Shown here: positions 26,380 through 28,413 of the stretch, piece by piece
Layout of the letters: each line of letters begins with the position of its first letter
How positions within the stretch are numbered: the stretch's first letter is position 1
Assembly (NCBI RefSeq): GCF_030733845.1
Contig: NZ_CP132311.1
Coordinates: 248,001-312,000, forward strand
Origin: Shinella zoogloeoides
Lineage (GTDB): Bacteria > Pseudomonadota > Alphaproteobacteria > Rhizobiales > Rhizobiaceae
Length of the DNA stretch: 64,000 nt
Reading direction: 5' to 3'
The notes under the pieces: generated by a model
What the model was told of the DNA's origin: nothing
What the model saw: only the letters and a program-made list of their open reading frames with translations
Databases searched by the model: none
Translations under genes and position numbers: made by a program

Positions 26380-26985
26380 ATGGCAAAACGAGTCACCGGC
26401 CCCGAAATCGAAAAACTCATCCAGCTCCTGGCGAAGGTGCCGGGCCTCGGGCCGCGCTCAGCGCGCCGCGCAGCGCTGCATCTCGTCAAGAAGAAGGACC
26501 AGTTGCTCGGGCCGCTGGCCGACGCGATGGGCGAGGCGCATCGCAAGGTGCGCATCTGCTCGTGCTGCGGCAATGTCGATACGAGCGACCCCTGCACGGT
26601 CTGCACCGACGGGCGGCGCGATCATTCGGTCATCATCGTCGTCGAGGACGTCTCCGACCTCTGGGCGCTGGAGCGGGCGGCCGCGATGAACGCCGCCTAC
26701 CATGTGCTCGGCGGCACGCTCTCGCCGCTCGATGGCATCGGGCCCGACGACCTCAACATCCGCGGCCTCGTCGACCGGGTGGCCAAGGGCGGCGTGCGCG
26801 AGCTGATAATCGCCGTCAATGCCACCGTCGAGGGCCAGACGACGGCGCACTACATCACCGACCAGCTCTCCGGCCTGGACGTGAAGATCACCCGGCTTGC
26901 CCACGGCGTGCCTGTTGGCGGCGAGCTCGACTATCTCGACGAAGGAACACTGACGGCCGCGCTCAGGGCGCGCACGGCTATCTGA
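26380..26985 (+). CDS. recR: Recombination mediator protein RecR
   Basis: A 201-residue RecR, which with RecF/RecO loads RecA at gaps. It has the helix-hairpin-helix start ([23 protein letters not shown]), a C4 zinc finger ([16 protein letters not shown] at about residues 57-72), and a Toprim domain ([15 protein letters not shown], then the [20 protein letters not shown] block). Length is canonical. The usual dnaX-ybaB-recR order is preserved, but a LysE gene and a reversed MOSC gene lie in between, so recR needs its own promoter in 26328-26379 or readthrough. Confidence 0.95.
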
Positions 26986-26997
26986 GGAAGGCTTATC

Positions 26998-28413
26998 ATG
27001 CTTCAATGGCTGCGGCGCTTCACCCCCCTCTGCCCTGCCGGGCATCTCCCCCTCAAGGGGGGAGATCGACCCGCGGCAGCCTTTCGCCAATCGGCCATGT
27101 CGCGGATTGTGGGAAAGGGAGGCTTCTTGCCAATCTCCCCCCTTGAGGGGGAGATGCCCGGCAGGGCAGAGGGGGGTATCGCCGCCCGCCTCGCGCTCGT
27201 CATCGCCATGACGTTTGCAGCGTTCCCCGCCCATGCGGCCTCCAAGGCCGAGGTCGAAAGCATGTTCCGCGCCTGGATCGACAACGATCTCTGGCCGGCG
27301 GCGCAGAAGACCGGCGTCAGCGAAAAGACGTTTCGCGCGGCGATGGAAGGTGTGACGTTGAGCTGGGACCTGCCCGATCTCGTGCCGCCCGGCTTCAAGC
27401 CGAAGAAGGAGCAGGCGCAGAGCCAGGCGGAGTTCTCCTCGCCCGGCGCCTACTTCTCCGAAAAGCGCCTGCAGGGCCTTGCGGGAACGGGAAGTCGGCT
27501 GGCCAAGACCCATGCGGGCACGCTGCGCAAGATCGAGCAGCGTTTCGGCGTGCCGGGCGAGATCGTTGTCGCCGTCTGGGGTCGCGAGTCGGGCTTCGGC
27601 AGCGCGAAGATCCCCTATTCGGCGGTGGAGGTTCTGGCCACAAAGGCCTTCATGTCGACGCGCAAGGACATGTTCCGCAAGGAGCTGATCGCGGCGCTGC
27701 ATATCGTCGACGGCGGCGACCGGACGGTCGCGCAGTTGAAGGGCTCGTGGGCCGGCGCGCTCGGCCAGCCGCAGTTCATGCCGACCAGCTTCCTGCAATA
27801 TGCCGTCGATTTCGACGGCGACGGCGTGCGCGACATCTGGGGCTCGGTGCCGGACAGCCTCGCCTCGATCGCCAACTATCTGGCGAAGAAGGGCTGGCAG
27901 GCGGGCCGTGGCTGGGGCTACGAGGTAACGATCCCGGGCGGCGTCTCCTGCGCGCAGGAAGGGCCGGACCTTGCAAAGCCGATCTCGGCCTGGGCGTCGA
28001 GCGGTATCACGCGCATTTCCGGCAAGGCGTTTCCATCCGGCGAGGCGAAGGCATCGGGCATGATGCTGGTTCCCGCCGGCACGCATGGCCCGGAATTCAT
28101 CGTCACGCCGAATTTCTACGTGCTCAAGGAATATAACAATTCCGACCTCTACGCCCTCTTCATCGGCAATCTCGCCGACCGCATCGCCTATGGCAGCGGG
28201 CCGTTCCGCGGTGCATGGGGCGACGTCGGCAAGATGCTGCGCTCGGATGTGCTCGCCATGCAGAAGGCGCTGGTCGCCAAGGGCTACGATGTCGGCAAGG
28301 TCGACGGTCTGCCCGGCTACAAGACGCGCCGCTCGCTCGGCGACTGGCAGGCCAAGAGCGGGCTTGCGCCGACGTGCTATCCGGATGCCTCGCTCAAGAC
28401 GAAGCTGCGCTGA
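26998..28413 (+). CDS. Lytic murein transglycosylase (MltB-like) with peptidoglycan-binding domain
   Basis: A 471-residue GH103 lytic transglycosylase cleaving peptidoglycan in the periplasm. The catalytic domain has WGRESGFG with the catalytic Glu, GALGQPQFMPTSFLQYAVDFDGDG and NYLAKKGWQ; a C-terminal peptidoglycan-binding repeat follows (VLAMQKALVAKGYDVGKVDG). The N-terminus is odd: residues 9-60 are encoded by a palindromic repeat inserted in frame between MLQWLRR and the secretion signal. An in-frame ATG inside the repeat at 27154, preceded by GAGGGGGAG, would give MPGRAEGGIAARLALVIAMT and a normal signal peptide ending AHA-A; it is the more plausible functional start. The 26998 start also has a good site (GAGGAAG). 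It lies 12 nt after recR. Confidence 0.9.
   Translation: MLQWLRRFTPLCPAGHLPLKGGDRPAAAFRQSAMSRIVGKGGFLPISPLEGEMPGRAEGGIAARLALVIAMTFAAFPAHAASKAEVESMFRAWIDNDLWPAAQKTGVSEKTFRAAMEGVTLSWDLPDLVPPGFKPKKEQAQSQAEFSSPGAYFSEKRLQGLAGTGSRLAKTHAGTLRKIEQRFGVPGEIVVAVWGRESGFGSAKIPYSAVEVLATKAFMSTRKDMFRKELIAALHIVDGGDRTVAQLKGSWAGALGQPQFMPTSFLQYAVDFDGDGVRDIWGSVPDSLASIANYLAKKGWQAGRGWGYEVTIPGGVSCAQEGPDLAKPISAWASSGITRISGKAFPSGEAKASGMMLVPAGTHGPEFIVTPNFYVLKEYNNSDLYALFIGNLADRIAYGSGPFRGAWGDVGKMLRSDVLAMQKALVAKGYDVGKVDGLPGYKTRRSLGDWQAKSGLAPTCYPDASLKTKLR
27023..27176. repeat. Perfect 44-bp inverted repeat inside the lytic transglycosylase leader
   Basis: The left arm (27023-27066) and right arm (27133-27176) are exact reverse complements over 44 bases, with a 66-base spacer. 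Each arm contains its own smaller hairpin (ATCTCCCCC with GGGGGAGAT). It has the same design as the composite palindrome at 8971-9111: outer inverted repeat, two inner hairpins and a spacer. The reading frame of the host gene stays open across it. Confidence 0.92.

Follow-up and report, generated by a model that had tools for sequence, protein, structure and literature searches.

A dispersed palindromic element lies in frame in the leader of a Shinella lytic transglycosylase gene and is probably read through from the original start codon

In the 64,000-nucleotide stretch of Shinella zoogloeoides DNA analysed here (the window), a palindromic element of 154 bp lies in frame within the leader of a lytic transglycosylase gene. 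From comparison with relatives we consider it probable (roughly 80%) that translation starts at the original codon at 26998, that the in-frame element supplies extra leader residues that are cut off on export, and that the frame is selected and the contents of the element turn over. The ribosome would read the element as ~50 extra leader residues, the hydrophobic core would export the protein, and cleavage at a putative site between AHA and AS would remove the leader together with every residue of the element; because these residues are lost with the leader, the mature enzyme would be unharmed. The most economical account is that of a passenger in a throw-away leader under frame selection.

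The palindromic element and its host gene

All features described below are on the forward strand. The host reading frame (26998-28413) encodes 471 residues from the ATG at 26998 to the stop codon at 28411-28413. Its product scores 349 bits against the TIGR02283 model of the MltB_2 subfamily (cut-off 248), which places it in that subfamily of lytic transglycosylases, and matches the SLT_2 transglycosylase domain (318 bits; residues 90-394, 27265-28179) and PG_binding_1 (34 bits). Directly upstream lies an open reading frame (26380-26985) whose protein we take to be RecR; 12 bases separate the recR stop codon from ATG 26998, and tblastn with the recR product served as the anchor for locating the transglycosylase locus in relatives. 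A sequence of ribosome-binding type, GAGGAAGG, is read at 26984-26991 ahead of ATG 26998, and a purine-rich stretch ahead of the start is also found in the other Shinella genomes whose leader is filled. Codons 1-9 (MLQWLRRFT, 26998-27024) comprise the original start and the beginning of the signal peptide. The remaining signal peptide, IAARLALVIAMTFAAFPAHA (27178-27237), was read from the sequence, and its probable cleavage between AHA and AS is our assignment by the usual A-X-A rule.

The element (27023-27176) follows MLQWLRRFT and precedes the hydrophobic core of the signal peptide; reading in frame from ATG 26998, no stop codon occurs within it or beyond it before that at 28411-28413. A reading of this DNA from its letters alone (hereafter the sequence-only reading) had described a perfect 44-bp inverted repeat in frame between MLQWLRR and the signal core, and we confirm this structure: a left arm of 44 nt (27023-27066), a spacer of 66 nt (27067-27132) that varies and is inverted in some relatives, and a right arm of 44 nt (27133-27176) that is the perfect reverse complement of the left. 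When mismatches are allowed, a weaker symmetry extends over 68-nt arms (27022-27089 and 27110-27177) that are 84% complementary. RNA folding of 26965-27200 yielded -168 kcal/mol (z -11.6), a value reached by 0 of 200 shuffles, and in this larger predicted fold both arms pair as one long hairpin. The right arm contains an in-frame ATG (27154-27156) directly after GAGGGGGAG; in the predicted fold of 27112-27190, GAGGGGGAG and the start of this ATG are part of a 9-bp hairpin of ordinary local energy (z -0.8).

A genome-wide DNA search of the window's own assembly (G000, 5.18 Mb) revealed 36 near-full-length copies, the focal one included, together with a few single arms; the search returned 80 rows for these 36 places, palindromy putting most of them on both strands. 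The copies are uniform in length, 22 being 153 bp and 8, among them the focal copy, 154 bp. Judged by the fold z-score and the 35 further near-full-length copies, the palindrome is far beyond chance. Twenty of the 36 copies lie within one half megabase (624158-1126142) of a 3.96-Mb contig (C2).

Frame and start codon among relatives

We read 82 loci from recR to the mature protein, namely the best 80 listed matches, the window and the Shinella genome G003. Element arms were detected in the same leader at 29 of these 82 listed loci; counting degenerate, masked and cut cases, 35 are occupied and 47 lack the element. Outside the 29, yet filled on the tree described below, are L072, L118 and L123 (N stretches), L102 (contig end), and L061 and L127 (degenerate). 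Two arm types occur among the relatives, that of the window and a sister type, read as TPLCHFVTSPPQGGR, whose stem is different. L076 (Neorhizobium petrolearium) is counted in the 29 though the arms detected there are those of a different palindrome, of the CCCTCTTCTCCCCAGCGGGGAGAAGG type, which sits in apparent remains of the first element; the frame is open there as well.

At all 29 loci an in-frame start codon precedes the element and no stop codon follows up to the mature protein (27 ATG, 2 TTG). The TTG starts are those of L068, where the codon follows GGGAGG, and of L078, whose only upstream candidate is TTG and is poorly supported. Within the element, the coding frame lacks stops in 29/29 cases, compared with 23/58 for the other two forward frames and 42/87 for the reverse frames; the corresponding Fisher p of 3e-9 carries no kinship correction, and the species are related, so that the 29 are not independent cases. 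The frame is kept despite changes in length, as seen in the apparent nested palindromes of L075 and L076 and the doubled end of L068. Against read-through count the composition of the arms, which are poor in stops by nature so that 40-48% of the non-coding frames are also open, and the very stable hairpin predicted just after the start, which might hinder translation.

As a control for frame fit, 76 copies from three Shinella genomes were placed in the focal frame (all 36 of G000, 20 of G018 and 20 of G004). Only 11 of the 73 non-focal copies fit in at least one orientation (19/146 by copy and orientation), compared with 3/3 focal copies (p 0.005). The 20 copies of G004 are not its plain top 20, as two 173-bp copies (unfit) were skipped and two 118-bp copies (both fit) were taken; this choice raises the control rate and thus works against the read-through reading.

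Within Shinella, 8 of 21 genomes have the element in the transglycosylase leader and 13 are without it. Two of the latter, G011 and G006, have a leader that begins as in the window and in the filled genomes: the empty leader of G011 reads MLRRLRRFTPRLAFATALALAAFPAHAAS, whereas the window has MLQWLRRFT, the element and then IAARLALVIAMTFAAFPAHAAS. Because these two genomes keep the same beginning without the element, the start at 26998 appears to be the old one, and the element splits the signal peptide between its first residues and its core. In the eight filled genomes the nine codons ahead of the element are conserved as protein, with Trp4 present in 8/8 and Leu5 specified by four different leucine codons, which is a sign of translation upstream of the element. 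The other 11 empty Shinella have an unlike leader (types MQIIRTFLKAS, SIRKAFKAS and similar), even beside a filled close sister (G001 compared with G003 and G020), which points to an exchange of whole leaders as well. Moreover, the unlike leader types of L029-L039 and L020-L028 alternate among close Shinella with similar mature enzymes, an arrangement that suggests that signal peptides may be exchanged as modules in this genus.

These comparisons bear directly on the choice of start codon. The sequence-only reading had proposed that a mobile-looking repeat may have taken over the start of the gene; a dispersed palindrome in the leader of a cell-wall gene is indeed what we find, but the replacement of the start is unsupported. 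A working start at 27154 with product MPGRAEGGIAARLALVIAMT and an untranslated upstream part would account for an in-frame ATG directly behind a purine-rich stretch, which is in frame in 25 of the 29 filled relatives listed, and the product would carry a signal peptide of ordinary length. The ATG belongs to the arm, however, and thus arrives with the element, and pairing is predicted for GAGGGGGAG as well as for the first part of the ATG. It is unusable in 4/29 relatives: L081 has ATA instead, L078 and L120 carry it out of frame, and in L076 another palindrome takes its place. Two of these, L076 and L120, offer a different in-frame ATG further upstream within the insert. The outcome that had been named as speaking against a new start, a long N-terminus shared by relatives as protein, is largely what the 29/29 kept upstream starts and open frames and the conserved codons of the eight filled Shinella amount to. 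We therefore reject start replacement at 27154 as the general case and regard its sole use even in the window as very improbable; the start at 26998 is better supported by the comparison. Use of both starts, giving a longer product from 26998 and a shorter one from 27154, would agree with the presence of both ATGs in frame in the window and most filled relatives, yet we hold it to be improbable given that 4/29 lack the second ATG or have it out of frame and that it is predicted to be paired.

Turnover at the site and copies elsewhere

The contents of the element turn over: the arms of Shinella copies are near identical, relatives have different or inverted spacers, and occupancy changes repeatedly. 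Between the sister species represented by L050 and L062, which have near-identical flanks, the 65-nt spacer is 91% identical when inverted and 53% when compared directly. The spacers of L054-L051, L025-L051 and L025-L058 match at 73-80% inverted versus 53-58% direct, and those of L125-L121 at 77% versus 54%. Inverted spacers were thus seen in three groups, mostly in draft assemblies in which an assembly error is possible; the orientation comparison was made without L093, L122, L113 and L124. On a tree of the mature enzyme, the listed loci require 15 changes of occupancy, at least 12 of them forced by well-supported branches, compared with 26.6 when labels are shuffled; this count is one of state changes, gain and loss taken together. 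Turnover would likely proceed by recombination, either with copies elsewhere or of one arm with the other.

Only 4 places are common to the 36 copies of G000 and the 39 of G018, the transglycosylase among them; the 39 are 40 listed places of G018 minus one at a contig end, so that the shared-place count bounds turnover rather than measuring it. Of the three remaining shared places, one has a spacer that matches slightly better when inverted (66% versus 60%), and spacer flipping may therefore extend beyond the transglycosylase gene.

The history of the site may also be told as one ancient ancestral insertion followed by many losses rather than as repeated insertion at a favoured place, an account compatible with read-through and selection of the frame. 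It draws on the same position ahead of the core in all occupied loci and on apparent arm remnants, recognized by eye in L087, L096, L065 and L090, which argue for losses. It has to accommodate at least 12 forced state changes among the 15, arm types that differ by lineage, and distances from the nearest ATG to the arm motif that fall into classes of 16-17, 19, 25, 28 and 37 nt (27 loci), and we entertain it only tentatively. Alternatively, the site might stay occupied because the element has a job, its hairpin or extra residues tuning expression or export of the enzyme; that the hairpins may regulate translation had been raised by the sequence-only reading. The occupation of 35/82 listed loci in several genera, against just the 4 places shared by the copies of G000 and G018, and the very stable predicted fold speak for such a role; nevertheless it seems unlikely to us, as 47/82 listed loci and 13/21 Shinella do without the element, spacer sequence and orientation vary freely, the element was repeatedly lost or gained, and the need to make the enzyme alone explains the conserved frame. 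Decidedly improbable, in our estimate, is an elaboration of this idea in which the element would form a long-lived, invertible signal-peptide extension in the Rhizobiaceae, recombination between its arms flipping the spacer, swapping ~20 leader residues and the mRNA fold with the frame intact, and so tuning export or amount of the cell-wall enzyme. With a passenger in the leader under frame selection, selection would keep the frame, the site would be one at which coding DNA tolerates a palindromic repeat, and any benefit to the cell is putative.

Among copies in other proteins, those in PBP1C provide further support for read-through. A protein search with the leader, limited to proteins 0.55-1.75 times the length of the leader protein, gave 34 proteins of 76 candidates, of which 26 were read. 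Besides transglycosylases (P0004, P0006 and P0008), the matches include PBP1C of a Brucella and a Phyllobacterium species, in which the insert lies in frame in mid-protein, the model match breaks there, and internal starts cannot explain the whole protein. TilS and UPF0280 proteins were found as well, and several matches are hypothetical proteins and possibly miscalled reading frames. Among eleven FtsY matches, some from Sinorhizobium meliloti, those read have element-like pieces before the SRP54 domains; such N-terminal peptide pieces, ISPLEGEMPGRAEGG, are seen in P0025, P0034 and further FtsY proteins, from Sinorhizobium meliloti as well as from other rhizobia. MotC and a di-haem oxidoreductase have the element ahead of an apparent hydrophobic leader, and a FecCD-type permease from a second search has it ahead of the first hydrophobic stretch; the arrangement in these three (P0013, P0016 and P0035) is as in the window.

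Frame-compatible copies of G000 were also examined as coding inserts. Ten of 11 spanning reading frames of at least 200 residues, located around six copies, were scanned, and Pfam domains were found only in two frames of L164, both downstream of the element, which makes this copy a candidate N-terminal extension at most; L160 and L163 have shorter spanning frames, outside the scan. Within the frames scanned, none of the other copies of G000 is shown to be a coding insert. The family is also present on 30 plasmid records from Sinorhizobium, Shinella, Rhizobium, Nitratireductor and Phyllobacterium, and in 0 of the 26 annotated ones does its best place fall inside a listed gene, the gene table being incomplete; the focal copy itself is in a gene. 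The eight Rfam matches, mostly to microRNA hairpin models, each scored below the respective gathering threshold, and a known structured RNA family was accordingly rejected. No clear target-site duplication was seen in the copy flanks or in comparison with the empty site, AFS054471 (L061) being set aside there for want of an anchor; the inverted repeats themselves are present. In L253 (G018) and L279 (G004) a pair of short inverted repeats flanks the element exactly on either side, as though it had come to lie in a hairpin or terminator loop.

Comparison with known repeat elements

Taken together, a largely intergenic repeat family occupies one coding site in many Rhizobiaceae species, in a part of the protein that would be discarded after export. 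This suggests a rule by which repeats that land at the beginning of a signal peptide are tolerated, and the inserts, flips and losses found naturally in this one gene make it suitable for work on the persistence of repeats in coding DNA. For annotation, the case warns against shifting the start codon to the ATG of a repeat.

To our knowledge, in-frame palindromic repeats are known mainly from Rickettsia and Wolbachia. In rhizobia, the Rhizobium-specific intergenic mosaic elements (RIMEs) of Osteras, Stanley and Finan (1995) are reportedly dispersed intergenic palindromes, which the present element presumably resembles in sequence. RIMEs are treated as intergenic, with no mention of coding insertion in the accessible portions of the sources (PMC2573895, PMC2873474, PMC1273637, PMC2245857, PMC10459465), whereas the focal copy described here lies in a gene. 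Among open-access titles and abstract openings we found no report of in-frame rhizobial palindromes, which is weak evidence, as subscription papers mostly fall outside such a search.

Small inverted-repeat elements of Coxiella burnetii (QMITE) are described, in the portion of the source at hand, as adding in-frame residues, one strain having such an addition at the end of enhC (PMC5896051). The likeness lies in an inverted-repeat element that adds protein residues in frame; host and element are unrelated, and that portion describes no recurrent leader site for QMITE. The closest parallel in kind is that of the Rickettsia palindromic elements, which are ~150 bp long, lie in frame in protein genes and, according to the sections available, are read as extra residues (PMC10969869; PMC1950309). 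Like these, the present element has dispersed copies (36 in G000) and lies inside a protein gene without disturbing its frame (29/29); as far as those sections go, both are repeats that a receptive part of a protein tolerates in frame. The likeness is one of kind rather than of descent, and the present element comes from another bacterial family, is apparently a different element and lies mostly outside genes. It differs further in that one leader site is occupied in many species, with the spacer inverted between relatives.
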